Shown here: positions 58,858 to 62,629 of the stretch, in pieces | Layout: each line of letters begins with the position of its first letter | How positions within the stretch are numbered: position 1 is the stretch's first letter | The notes under the pieces: model-generated | Told to the model about the DNA's origin: nothing | The model's input: the letters and a program-made list of their open reading frames with translations, nothing else | The model's database searches: none | Source of the DNA: Gammaproteobacteria bacterium | Lineage (GTDB): Bacteria; Pseudomonadota; Gammaproteobacteria; Enterobacterales; Permianibacteraceae | DNA: 64,000 bases | Reading direction: 5' to 3' | Assembly (NCBI GenBank): GCA_016182845.1 | Contig: JACPFT010000013.1 | Location: 124,001 to 188,000, forward strand | Translations under genes and position numbers: made by a program

Positions 58858-60033
58858 TCAGCCTGATGCTTCCCCCGCTTCACCGACACAAGCCTCGGCC
58901 GGGGCATAATAGCCATTCAGCAAATTCGGCTGTTCGCGCAGCATCGCCGCGATCAGCCGCCGCCCCCGCTCCAGGCTGGGCCGGTCGGTCGTGAAGACGC
59001 GCTGATTCAGGCAGTTGGCGAGGTTAAGTTGGGCCAGGTACTGGCTACCAATCGCCATGCTGATGCTCTCGTCGCCCGAGCCGTAGCCGGCGGCAAAACT
59101 CCTGAGGAAATCCTCGGGGTAGCGGCGGAAATAGCGATCATCCTTGTTGCCCAGGACCGTGGTGAAATCCACCGAACCCAGTCTCAGCTCGGAAAACAGC
59201 GGCTCCCGGCCATCCCGTGTATAAGCGGACAGATGGTGGCGCATCCACAAGCCCAGGGTATGGGCCTGGACCTCGTCATTGAAGGCGAAGCGTCGCGCGG
59301 CCTCGGCCTCGCCGAAGCGCGGCGCGGGCCAGCGCCGGACGACATGGCTCCATTCATGGGCCAGGTTGCCCAGCTTCTCGCTCCATTCCAAGAACCGCCG
59401 GGAATTCAGCACCATGTTCTCGGCATCCAGGGTCTCCTTGTGCTGCCGATTGACATTCCGCAGCTGAGCGATGGCCTTAGCGTACTCCGCCACTACCGGC
59501 GCCCTGCGCGTGATCGGCATCAGGAAACGCAGCCGGACCAGCACCCCGGCCGGCTCCTCGCTGATCATGGCCAATGGAACGGCCTCGTCCACGGCATAGA
59601 GGTGGAACTCGGCCGCCGGCGCCCCCGGAAAGAAACCGCTCAGCGCCCGTTCCCATTCGGGCCAGAGCGCGGCGCCCAGCCGGGCGAAGTCCCGGCCCAG
59701 TTCGTCGGCCATGCCTTCTTCGGCATGGATCACCAGCCGGTAAGAGCCAGCCTGGGCCGTGGCCAGTTCGCGGAACCCCAGCCGCTCGAACGCCTCGGCC
59801 TCGCAGCGGGGTTGGCATTTCCACTCGGAGCCGCTCCAGGCCGAGCGTCCCGAGAAGGAATTGGTCACATTGACGAAATCATTGCCCTTGACCGACTCGG
59901 AAGGATAGTCATGGCCAAACTCCGCATCGGCACCGCGCAGGCCGGCGCAGGCCGCCAGAGCCGCGGCCCCGCCCAGAACTAGCCCGACCTTTAGGCGTCG
60001 TACCAGCCCGGCCTTCATTTTCCCGTATCCCAT
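58858..60033 (-). CDS. Lipoprotein with HEWSH zinc-metalloprotease-like motif
   Basis: A 391-residue protein. The lipobox LAAC at 26-29 marks Cys29 as the lipidated residue; AAAGGAG is 7 nt before ATG 60033. Residues 226-230 read HEWSH inside NLAHEWSHVVRRW, an HExxH zinc motif. FNDEVQAH follows at 251-258; Glu254 could be the third ligand, 24 residues after His230, as in gluzincins. No family is recognised. A degenerate GTAGGTCC repeat overlaps the 3' end. A second lipoprotein gene lies 93 nt upstream on the same strand, so they probably form an operon. Function unknown; zinc peptidase activity is inferred. Confidence 0.6.
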   Translation of the reverse strand: MGYGKMKAGLVRRLKVGLVLGGAAALAACAGLRGADAEFGHDYPSESVKGNDFVNVTNSFSGRSAWSGSEWKCQPRCEAEAFERLGFRELATAQAGSYRLVIHAEEGMADELGRDFARLGAALWPEWERALSGFFPGAPAAEFHLYAVDEAVPLAMISEEPAGVLVRLRFLMPITRRAPVVAEYAKAIAQLRNVNRQHKETLDAENMVLNSRRFLEWSEKLGNLAHEWSHVVRRWPAPRFGEAEAARRFAFNDEVQAHTLGLWMRHHLSAYTRDGREPLFSELRLGSVDFTTVLGNKDDRYFRRYPEDFLRSFAAGYGSGDESISMAIGSQYLAQLNLANCLNQRVFTTDRPSLERGRRLIAAMLREQPNLLNGYYAPAEACVGEAGEASG

Positions 60034-60126: not shown

Positions 60127-60933
60127 TCAGCGGGCGTGACAGCGGTATTCGCCGCAATCGGGCACGGCCTCGATGACCACCGCGTCGGATCCGGCCAGAA
60201 GCGCCGTGCCATTGGCGCTCAACGCCAGCGTCGGCGTGAACATCTGGCCGCCCCGGGGATCCACCACCTGGGCGGCGATATTCGGCAATTCCACCTCCAG
60301 ACGCGCGGGCTTGACGGTATCCATCGCCATATACACCTGGGCCGCCAGCCACGGGGAATTCTGTACCGTCAGCTCGCCGCTGCGGACCTCATAACCGAGG
60401 GGGATCTCCTGGTGCAAGCGCCCATCATGATAGACGCGGATCCGGCCCGAGCCGGCCCCGTCCTTGTAGGTGATATTGCCGCCGCCTAGCTTGGCGTAAA
60501 GCCCGCGCCCCGTGGATTGCGAGGACTTGAACAGGCTGGTCTGGATTTCAAGCACGCCAAACCCGGAGCCGGAACCAGCCCCACCGGCAAATCCGGCAAT
60601 CAGCCGCGATTGAATCCAGAAGGAATTGAGTTCAATGATCGGGCTCGTATTCTCAGGGCTATGGGGCGAAACCGGCTGAGGCTGCGCCTGCCATTTACAC
60701 TCGATGCCGAGCCGAGCCACTACTTTCCCGCCATTGGTTTGGTCGTAAGCCCCTTCAACTTCGGCCTTCTCGTTGCACACTTTCACCCAGATCTTACCTT
60801 GTCCTGGCGAAGCGCTTGGCATCGAACTGCATCCGGCCAGACCCAGGCTGAACCCAGCGGCAAGCGCCATGATCGACGCCGGCTTGGCGAATTTGCCAGC
60901 CTGCGGCATCTTGCCTTCCATAAAATTCTTCAT
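60127..60933 (-). CDS. Lipoprotein of unknown function
   Basis: A 268-residue protein with lipobox LAGC at 32-35. AAGGA lies 9 nt before ATG 60933. The mature part is Gly- and Ser-rich and strand-like (GKIWVKVCNEKAEVEGAY, GRIRVYHDGRLHQEIPLGYE, LEVELPNIAAQVVDP), ending with CGEYRCHAR. No family is recognised. It is the first gene of the probable two-lipoprotein operon. Its leader contains a run of 26 G on the coding strand 53 nt before the start, with four phased GATAC repeats beyond. Confidence 0.55.
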   Translation of the reverse strand: MKNFMEGKMPQAGKFAKPASIMALAAGFSLGLAGCSSMPSASPGQGKIWVKVCNEKAEVEGAYDQTNGGKVVARLGIECKWQAQPQPVSPHSPENTSPIIELNSFWIQSRLIAGFAGGAGSGSGFGVLEIQTSLFKSSQSTGRGLYAKLGGGNITYKDGAGSGRIRVYHDGRLHQEIPLGYEVRSGELTVQNSPWLAAQVYMAMDTVKPARLEVELPNIAAQVVDPRGGQMFTPTLALSANGTALLAGSDAVVIEAVPDCGEYRCHAR

Positions 60934-60986
60934 GCGATATCGTCCTTAGCTCTTGAATTGCCGGCCTTTCCGGCGCGCAGAAGCTA

Positions 60987-61012
60987 CCCCCCCCCCCCCC
61001 CCCCCCCCCCCC
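60987..61012. repeat. Homopolymer run of 26 C (26 G on the minus strand)
   Basis: 26 consecutive C. Runs of this length are prone to slipped-strand change. On the minus strand the run lies between the likely promoter/operator region and the start of the lipoprotein gene 60127-60933. It is outside the coding part of the phospholipase-D gene, which starts at 61139. The exact length could also be an assembly uncertainty. Confidence 0.85.
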
Positions 61013-61021
61013 AAATATTGT

Positions 61022-61056
61022 GTATCGTTCAGTATCCGACTGTATCGCCGCGTATC
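61022..61056. promoter_or_regulatory. Four GTATC pentamers at exact 10-nt spacing
   Basis: GTATC at 61022, 61032, 61042 and 61052 (GATAC on the minus strand), each followed by 5 variable bases. A one-turn-per-repeat array suggests cooperative binding of a protein on one DNA face. It lies about 90-120 nt before the lipoprotein gene start and 83-117 nt before the phospholipase-D gene start, so it could control either or both. Confidence 0.55.
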
Positions 61057-61138: not shown

Positions 61139-62629
61139 ATGTCCCTGACCGGCAAACTCCGGCTCCGGCTACGCCTAAACCAGAGCCCCCGCGCCCCGGC
61201 GGGACCGGCCCTAAACCCGGTCAGCCCATCACTGCTCCAGCTCCTGGCCCCACCGTCCGACACGCCACCGGCGTTTAGCGGCTGCCGCCTATTGGCCACC
61301 AGCCAGGACGCCTATCTGGCGCGCCTGGGCCTCGCCGATCGGGCCATGCACAGCCTGGACATCCAGTACTTCCGCTGGGACGACGACAGCGTAGGGCGCG
61401 TGCTCTTGGAGAGGCTGATGGCCGCCGCCGAGCGCGGCGTGCGCGTGCGCCTGCTCATCGACGATATCCATACCGCCGGCCGCGATCGGCATTTGGTACG
61501 CCTCGATGCCCTGCCCGGCGTGGAAGTGCGCGTGTTCAATCCCTTCGGCAGCCGCGACTGGCCCGTCCTGCGCGCCCTGGATCTGCTCCGGGATTTCCGC
61601 CGCCTAAACCATCGCATGCACAACAAGGCCTGGCTCGCCGACAACGCCGCCGCCATCGTCGGTGGGCGCAATATCGCCGAGCATTATTTCGGCCTGAACC
61701 AGGACAGCAATTTCCGCGATCTGGACGTGCTGCTGGCCGGGCCCGCCGTACAGGAGCTGTCCACGGCCTTCGACGCCTATTGGAACAGCGCCTGGGCACG
61801 CCCCATCGCCGCGCTGAGCCTGCTGCGCTCCAGCCCGCGCCGCGCCCGGCGCTACCACCGGCGCCTGAAGCGGCGCATCGCGCGCATGCGCGGTTTCCCC
61901 TATCCCAGCCGCTGGCTCGAGGCCTTCGACGCCGAGCTCTGCCGCGACCTGGTCTGGGCGCCGGTGCGCGTGGTGCACGATACGCCCGACAAGGTGGGCA
62001 GCCCGGCCGGGCAGAGCGCCGTGTGGACGGCCTTGCAGGAACTCTTCGGGGCCGTGCGGCGCGAATGCCTCTTAGAAAGCGCCTATTTCGTGCCCAGCCC
62101 CGAGAGCCTGGCGGCCTTCGCCGCCATGCGGACGCGCGGCGTCGGCTTGCGCGCCCTGACCAATTCCTTAGGCTCCACCGACGTCATCGCTGCCCATGCC
62201 GGCTACGCCCGCTGGCGGCTGCGCATCCTAGACGCCGGCATCGAGCTCCACGAGCTGCGACCCCTGCGTCCGCGCCGGCGCTTGAGCCTGCCGCGCCGGC
62301 GCAACCGCTCGCGCTCGGCCCTGCATGCCAAGGCCGCCCTGCTGGACGGCTCACGGGTCTTGATCGGCTCCTTCAACCTGGACAGCCGCTCCGAGGCCAT
62401 CAACACCGAGTTGATGCTCATCATCGACAGCGACAAACTGGGGCAGAGCCTGCGCGCCGTGCTCGACGCCGGCGTCGCGCCGGAACACGCCTGGCGCGTG
62501 CGGCGGGAGGCTGCGGGGCTGGTGTGGGAAAGCGGCGCGGAATCCGAACGCGGCGAACCGCAGGCGGGCTGGTGGCGGCGGCTGGCGGCGAAAATCCTGG
62601 GCTGGCTGCCCATGGACAGCCAGCTCTGA
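61139..62629 (+). CDS. Phospholipase D-like cardiolipin synthase (ClsC type)
   Basis: A 496-residue protein with two HKD motifs: HNKAWLAD with following GGRNIAEHYF, and HAKAALLD with following GSFNLDSRSEAINTE. FRWDDDSVGRVLLERLMAAA before the first motif is typical of ClsC/YmdC. It would join phospholipids to make cardiolipin. The start ATG 61139 (MSLTGKL) has no strong ribosome site; a longer frame that runs through the C-run (poly-Pro) is judged non-coding. It is convergent with ppx (7 nt between stops). Confidence 0.85.
   Translation: MSLTGKLRLRLRLNQSPRAPAGPALNPVSPSLLQLLAPPSDTPPAFSGCRLLATSQDAYLARLGLADRAMHSLDIQYFRWDDDSVGRVLLERLMAAAERGVRVRLLIDDIHTAGRDRHLVRLDALPGVEVRVFNPFGSRDWPVLRALDLLRDFRRLNHRMHNKAWLADNAAAIVGGRNIAEHYFGLNQDSNFRDLDVLLAGPAVQELSTAFDAYWNSAWARPIAALSLLRSSPRRARRYHRRLKRRIARMRGFPYPSRWLEAFDAELCRDLVWAPVRVVHDTPDKVGSPAGQSAVWTALQELFGAVRRECLLESAYFVPSPESLAAFAAMRTRGVGLRALTNSLGSTDVIAAHAGYARWRLRILDAGIELHELRPLRPRRRLSLPRRRNRSRSALHAKAALLDGSRVLIGSFNLDSRSEAINTELMLIIDSDKLGQSLRAVLDAGVAPEHAWRVRREAAGLVWESGAESERGEPQAGWWRRLAAKILGWLPMDSQL

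Follow-up and report, generated by a model that had tools for sequence, protein, structure and literature searches.

A predicted operator of one-turn GTATC repeats recurs before a lipoprotein operon and secreted peptidase genes

The CpxR box, GTAAA-N5-GTAAA, serves an envelope regulon, and the regulator RstA is widespread. The promoters of porA and opc in Neisseria are phase-variable and carry a homopolymer in or near the spacer. Regulators of the OmpR/PhoB family typically have one-turn direct repeats as their sites, with a copy number that varies, as described in the available portions of two papers (PMC3050692, PMC4117788). The RstA box is given in the latter excerpt as TACATNTNGTTACA or TACANNNNNNTACA, i.e., TACA-N6-TACA, which equals TGTA-N6-TGTA on the opposite strand, and it tolerates imperfect TACA repeats (PMC4117788). 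OmpR sites consist of 20 bp with two 10-bp sub-elements in tandem and occur in sets of two or three (PMC3050692, in part); excerpts of two further papers give GXXAC/TGTAAC as critical for OmpR (PMC7867234) and TGTWACAW as its motif (PMC3586657). BldC assembles cooperatively into multimers on direct repeats in DNA (excerpt of PMC5859096). In the available text on Photobacterium damselae, RstAB controls secreted toxins, and the proteases found there are RstAB-independent (PMC6491958). The promoter of Neisseria nspA has a phase-variable poly-A tract (excerpt of PMC6389960).

The locus compared here with these systems lies in a window of 64,000 nucleotides, the whole stretch of DNA that was analysed. 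Recounting in the window confirmed the original prediction that GTATC starts at 61022, 61032, 61042, and 61052 with exact 10-nt phasing and that the array is flanked by two divergent genes, one for a lipoprotein (minus strand) and one of the phospholipase D family (plus strand). The features are as follows.

58858..60033, minus strand: second lipoprotein gene, 391 aa, with an HEWSH motif (open reading frame, Pfam, PDB)
60127..60933, minus strand: lipoprotein gene, 268 aa, first gene of the likely target operon (open reading frame, Pfam)
60981..60986, minus strand: TAGCTT, a -10-like hexamer directly after (G)26 (comparison with TAGATT of the paralogue)
60987..61012, no strand assigned: homopolymer (C)26, read as (G)26 along the lipoprotein operon, a candidate slippage tract between operator and start codon
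61022..61056, plus strand: predicted tandem operator array of four GTATC half-sites in 10-bp steps (sequence, shuffles)
61139..62629, plus strand: phospholipase-D-family gene, cardiolipin-synthase-like, with scores below the NCBIfam cut-offs

The array is separated by 88 bp from the ATG of the lipoprotein gene, in whose sense its copies read GATAC, and by 82 bp from the phospholipase-D-family gene. The bases 5' of copies 1 to 4 are T, A, T, and C. Three GTATC-N5-GTATC pairs were found in the window, all from the array, compared with a mean of 0.03 and a maximum of 1 in 100 dinucleotide shuffles; lone GTATC is at background level (43 in the window versus a shuffle mean of 42). The array and its counterparts elsewhere have the general attributes of OmpR/PhoB direct repeats, namely, head-to-tail half-sites, spacing by one helical turn, and an intergenic position. 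Judged from its sequence, the array looks like a real, functional-looking predicted operator.

Comparison with the described boxes revealed likenesses and differences. The geometry is that of the CpxR box (pentamer, 5-bp spacer, direct repeat), but all four window copies read GTATC and not GTAAA. The best match of Escherichia coli CpxR among 14 regulators of the genome was OmpR (41%), so no clear CpxR orthologue was seen. As in the RstA box of the RstAB system of E. coli and Klebsiella, the genome-wide consensus of the arrays has tandem TACA half-sites set 10 bp apart and the predicted reader belongs to the OmpR/PhoB family, whereas the half-site here is the longer and stricter GATACAA and arrays reach four units. 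The genes concerned are secreted peptidases, barrel proteins, and lipoproteins, unlike asr and csgD, which are discussed for RstA (excerpt of PMC4117788). The OmpR boxes of ompF and ompC likewise place tandem 10-bp sub-elements upstream of envelope genes (excerpt of PMC3050692), but GTATC lacks the AC doublet, and the genes differ except for outer-membrane barrels (L014 in G000, L149 in G002).

To describe recurrence, the genome holding the window (G000, 3.82 Mb) and two genomes from another genus of the same family (G001 and G002) were searched. The exact triple gave five matches at four places in G000 and none with the reversed control; a sample of 39 other genomes, 2 from the family and 37 from the order, did not contain it. 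GTATC-N5-GTATC gave 15 pairs at 10 places in G000, all 10 of them intergenic by our own gene calls, which were made with a simple ad hoc script. Loosening the spacing to N4 to N6 yielded 21 matches (N4, 0; N5, 15; N6, 6) versus 10 for the reversed control; single loose pairs are therefore not individually secure. The spacers, which had been described as unrelated, are indeed so within the window array, but the other arrays of the genome roughly share the consensus [C/G]NNTT, so that the repeat unit is about TTGTATCNNN. A T stands 5' of GTATC in 19 of 25 array copies versus 3 of 39 isolated window copies (Fisher P, 2e-8). With up to two mismatches, TTGTATCNNNTTGTATC was matched 17 times in G000 versus 0 for the reversed control, 29 versus 7 times in G001, and 15 versus 2 times in G002. 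The array had also been described as outside any repeat family seen elsewhere in the window; it is indeed alone there, but the exact triple and the pairs recur elsewhere in the genome. What had been taken as a stand-alone feature instead resembles one site of a regulon, in which secreted peptidases are the commonest recognisable members.

The 10 exact N5 places of G000 stand before the following genes.

L001, L002, and L019: S8 subtilases
L156 and L026: M4 thermolysins
L010: M36 fungalysin
L014: outer-membrane beta-barrel protein
L006: exported-looking protein without a Pfam match
L005: TetR/PALP-enzyme gene pair
Tenth place: the lipoprotein operon of the window

Six of these 10 places thus precede peptidase genes with signal-peptide-like starts (S8, three; M4, two; M36, one). 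The distance from array to start codon ranges from about 90 to 470 bp, and the orientation of the array relative to the gene is mixed. G000 has 10 S8 loci, three of which stand behind the 10 arrays, which corresponds to P of about 5e-6 to 7e-6 on the assumption of 3400 genes, 13 or 14 of which face the arrays. The array at L002 is accompanied at 1489-1506 by a perfect inverted repeat, TGTATCG-CCGT-CGATACA, beside the direct repeats and before the S8 gene. The TetR-type protein encoded beside the L005 array was considered as a reader and rejected; in a tblastn search, none of the 66 array loci described below encoded a clear relative (best E, 0.24). TetR proteins normally bind inverted repeats.

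Two sets of sites intended as controls turned out to contain peptidase genes. Among five separate places with N6 spacing, two precede peptidases (L017, S9; L018, M16), and the others, without a peptidase, are L011 (inside a gene), L012, and L013. This result indicates that 11-bp spacing is probably allowed. The 6-nt-spaced pairs themselves lie at 1491-1516 in L017 and 1501-1516 in L018 and are likely 11-bp variants of the operator. Family f6, meant as the negative control, had 35 sites in 7 genomes, of which 30 were obtained as loci (21 intergenic and 9 intragenic). Among the matches listed, at least 3 of 23 facing genes match Peptidase_S8, so f6 is no clean negative control.

Analysis of the relatives extended the association with peptidases. 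With up to one mismatch, peptidases follow four of seven places in G001 (S8, M35, S9, and M16) and one of three in G002 (S1). Allowing two mismatches in these two genomes added further M4, S41, M35, and S9 genes, a gene for an M4/M36-type propeptide, and the barrel gene L149, together with many unrelated genes (e.g., prmA, pseudouridine synthase, and a TonB receptor) and intragenic sites. In family f8, peptidases (seven S8 and two S1) stand behind 9 of 20 stretches, which represent 21 of at least 53 f8/g9 places and were picked before the genes were seen; several of the peptidase stretches are mutually orthologous and hence not independent, and 2 of the 20 sites lie inside called genes. Pfam was applied to 42 of the 52 genes that face a site in G001, G002, or f8. 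Overall, families S8, S1, S9, M4, M16, M35, M36, and S41 were found behind the operator. At L194 and L198, from two f8 genomes, the element precedes a gene for a 129-aa XRE-type regulator. Family f8 may be Kangiella-like, a guess based on S8 clusters and genome size.

In the order, 295 genomes were searched with up to one mismatch and 204 carry at least one refined match; taken by itself, the pattern is therefore common. Motif and reversed-control sums, tallied by eye for six families, showed a clear excess in f1 (19 versus 0, 3 genomes), f8/g9 (60 versus 9, 17 genomes), and f6/g7 (63 versus 11, 20 genomes), a weak excess in f27 (30 versus 13, 21 genomes), and no excess in f25 (9 versus 7, 22 genomes) and f2 (21 versus 22, 11 genomes).

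In two families, the refined unit, repeated every 10 or occasionally 11 bp, stands ahead of genes for secreted peptidases, some of which are orthologous. Between G000 and G001, it was found before both members of an M16 pair with 71% identity (L018, with N6 spacing, and L139) and of an S8 pair with 66% identity (L002 and L124). It likewise precedes M4 peptidases with 49% identity (L026 in G000; L161 and L140 in G001 and G002). The lipoprotein operon has a paralogue in G000, L155, with TTGTATCGCTTTGTAGC upstream, a lipoprotein 47% identical to that of the window, and, by eye, a duplicate of the second lipoprotein gene as well. The orthologous operon of G001, L267, encodes a lipoprotein with 23-24% identity followed by an HExxH lipoprotein. 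Its upstream element, TGTATC-N4-TGTAGT, ends 83 bp before the ATG taken as start and is weaker evidence because it is four mismatches from the refined pattern. A search of G002 gave no lipoprotein match at E 0.01. Absence of the array before orthologues had been named as the observation that would speak against an operator; an element was present at the paralogue L155 and, in degenerate form, at L267 of the other genus, but the exact triple was found in none of the 39 other genomes. The array is best read, as originally proposed, as an OmpR/PhoB-class operator made of tandem direct repeats one turn apart, and the element recurs before the paralogous and, in degenerate form, the orthologous lipoprotein operon.

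The phospholipase-D-family gene is a possible alternative or second target of the array. As sole target it is less likely: the element is retained at both the L155 and the L267 lipoprotein operon, and the open reading frame lists there contain no such divergent neighbour. The paralogue and the orthologue favour the lipoprotein operon, which would be the responding side of the divergent pair.

Triples in other bacteria support the class of the reader. A search of the genome contig collection gave 66 stretches with a triple. Twelve of these are from Rhodobacterales, with the GTATCRRATTGTATCRRTTTGTATC-like triple in a divergent region (L029, L033, L045, L046, L050, L051, L052, L054, L056, L068, L072, and L086); 19 loci from other groups had no common context by eye. 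Visual inspection revealed, directly behind the triple, an open reading frame for an OmpR-family regulator in 10 of the 12 Rhodobacterales loci and a Crp/Fnr-type gene opposite in 10 of 12; in the remaining loci, the slice was too short, the reading frame was not seen, or the opposite strand had been picked. The array was the sole place with exact GTATCNNNTTGTATC in all six Rhodobacterales genomes searched. The four regulators tested from these loci were OmpR-like and not RstA-like. The Rhodobacterales triple is probably an autoregulatory operator, and its position beside an OmpR-family gene gives independent support for an OmpR/PhoB-class reader. A PAS-kinase-like reading frame was often seen, by eye, to face the regulator gene at these triples.

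We suggest that an OmpR/PhoB-family response regulator, most probably RstA (L097, G000:C2:51440-52075), uses the array as its operator, an assignment made with slightly better than even confidence. In a reciprocal comparison of 8 E. coli regulators with 14 G000 regulators, L097 was the reciprocal best hit of E. coli RstA (45%), followed among E. coli proteins by OmpR (40%). Its best NCBIfam model is RstA, yet below the cut-off (248 versus 330 bits), and its PDB matches include RstA chains, with regX3 as the top hit. Regulators of the L097 type, with 51-65% identity, were found in G001, in G002, and in four of five f8 genomes (G096, G166, G210, and G078); L301 (G001) and L314 (G210) match E. 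coli rstA best within the E. coli panel. In the fifth f8 genome, G153, four of five matches (L283 and L310-L312) included no RstA-type regulator. Since T precedes 19 of the 25 GTATC copies, the opposite strand reads TACA-N6-TACA, the RstA box.

Several findings speak against RstA. The motif is clearly above the control in some families only, although RstA is widespread. The OmpR-like character of the four Rhodobacterales regulators tested and the RstAB-independence of the proteases found in P. damselae also count against it. GATAC is better conserved than TACA, with T missing before 6 of 25 copies, two of the four window copies included, although this comparison is partly built in by the selection of copies as GTATC. 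The window array has TACA at copies 1 and 3 alone, 20 bp apart, and its adjacent half-sites are imperfect. No element within three mismatches was found in the 2.3-3.6 kb around 30 regulator or receiver genes of G000, RstA included, so there is no sign of autoregulation.

If RstA is the reader, the phosphorylated regulator would bind head to tail, each 10-bp unit (TTGTATCNNN, or GATACAANNN on the opposite strand) taking up a single DNA-binding domain, and would act near the -35 region. RstA binding, the direction of control, the inducing signal, and the responding divergent gene are what we infer here, and activation by the regulator is a guess from the operator position. The common operator would tie the secreted peptidase genes, the outer-membrane barrel genes, and the lipoprotein operon into one RstA-type exoprotease/envelope regulon, which is proposed here from the sequence data. 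The literature search found no account of this motif or of such a regulon, and the available main text of a Kangiella genome paper contains no words beginning with "regulat" (PMC6000758). Co-ordination of the many secreted peptidases of Kangiella-type proteolytic bacteria appears little studied, and a defined operator offers an entry point to their control through one regulator and one DNA motif. RstA would, if the assignment is true, gain a coherent regulon in these bacteria.

OmpR itself is an unlikely reader of the arrays. OmpR and EnvZ are present in the genome, L093 being an OmpR with 76% identity to that of E. coli, and one genome of the order has an OmpR identical to that of E. coli K-12, which makes Enterobacterales, broadly defined, the probable order. 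The window array has the two tandem 10-bp sub-elements of an OmpR box, some half-sites elsewhere read TTGTAAC (e.g., L196), and the regulators encoded next to the Rhodobacterales arrays resemble OmpR. The AC doublet is missing, however, with TC in its place in four of four window copies; the window array is the only fair test of this doublet, as the genome-wide copies were selected as GTATC. OmpR was demoted for this reason. All OmpR proteins compared from f1, f8, f7, f6, and f15 have the recognition helix of the E. coli protein with no more than conservative substitutions, and because of this uniformity OmpR leaves the GTATC preference of some families unexplained.

Another regulator of the OmpR/PhoB family (e.g., the BaeR-like L095, L099, L102, or one that was not sampled) is an improbable reader as well. 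Thirteen matches in G000 span a receiver and a DNA-binding domain, the recognition helices are too alike to discriminate among regulators, and L102 lies about 1.5 kb from a large S8 protease gene. Against this, no element within three mismatches occurs near L095, L099, or L102, and the 6 kb holding L102 and the S8 start are free of it. The type represented by L094 has its closest relatives (57%) in f25, where the motif about equals the control. L094 was rejected: its DNA-binding domain is nearest to a Yoonia one (44 of 102), but its best relatives are those of f25, and in G001, G002, and five f8 genomes it matches the OmpR of each genome best (46-50%).

A protein other than a response regulator that polymerises on direct repeats, such as a BldC-like protein or the f8 XRE-type protein, is a very unlikely reader: BldC provides the precedent and the XRE-type gene follows the element at L194 and L198, but that gene was met in f8 only and could be a mere target, and the half-site fits a known response-regulator box. 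That the array is a chance or non-regulatory repeat (a simple tandem repeat or a mobile element remnant) is highly improbable, since its spacers differ between the window copies, the refined motif gave no reversed-control match in G000, and the element recurs before similar peptidase genes in another genus, even though plain tandem repeats of 10 bp, their spacers all identical, account for many of the 66 stretches from other genomes and the loose pair pattern matched the reversed control 10 times.

The lipoprotein operons show a further feature, overlooked in the original description, between operator and start codon. The window has two runs of at least nine G or C, of 11 and 26 nucleotides. 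In the sense of the lipoprotein operon, (G)26 is followed by TAGCTT and by a GCGCGCC stretch like that of the paralogue; no full promoter match was found in the window. The L155 promoter has (G)14 in the corresponding place and consists of TTGCCA, a 16-bp spacer (GC plus G14), and TAGATT, a pattern with 1 match versus a shuffle mean of 0.1; its GATACAA unit ends 7 bp before TTGCCA. In L267 of G001, (A)10 occupies the corresponding place and falls inside the gene if a TTG is the start. G000 has 15 G runs of at least nine, seven of which reach 13 or more, and two of these seven are the window and L155 promoters; the lengths depend on the assembly and come from one genome of the species.

Slippage-driven phase variation at the (C)26 and (G)14 promoters is plausible. 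A tentative and rather doubtful extension is a promoter with two keys, in which the RstA-type operator would provide regulated recruitment and the hypermutable homopolymer would alter the spacing between operator and -10 region. Within an exoprotease regulon that otherwise acts coherently, slippage would then switch a single member in or out in each cell, and the paralogous operons (G26 and G14) would be independent switches. Like the phase-variable promoters of Neisseria, those considered here have a homopolymer that lies within or beside the candidate core elements upstream of a gene for a surface protein; unlike them, the homopolymer is joined to a predicted response-regulator operator and is known from one genome. 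If the homopolymer acts as proposed, regulated and random control would be joined on one promoter.

Neither of the two lipoproteins of the window matched a Pfam family up to E 10, and the 391-aa protein matched nothing in the PDB up to E 1. The HExxH motif of the latter is retained as HEWTH in the orthologue from the other genus (L267 306-1430). The lipoproteins with HEWSH or HEWTH and NDEV (window 58858-60033 and L267 306-1430) form a family without a Pfam or PDB match and may represent an undescribed family of metallopeptidases.

A second candidate for homopolymer variation was noticed in L262 (G000:C24:227310 region), where a run of 50 C at 1460-1509 lies just after two ATGs and before the signal-peptide-like stretch LSVSLVALGLLLA. 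The ATG at 1438 is in frame with this stretch and the ATG at 1451 is not; provided that the assembly is correct, L262 is therefore a candidate for translational phase variation.
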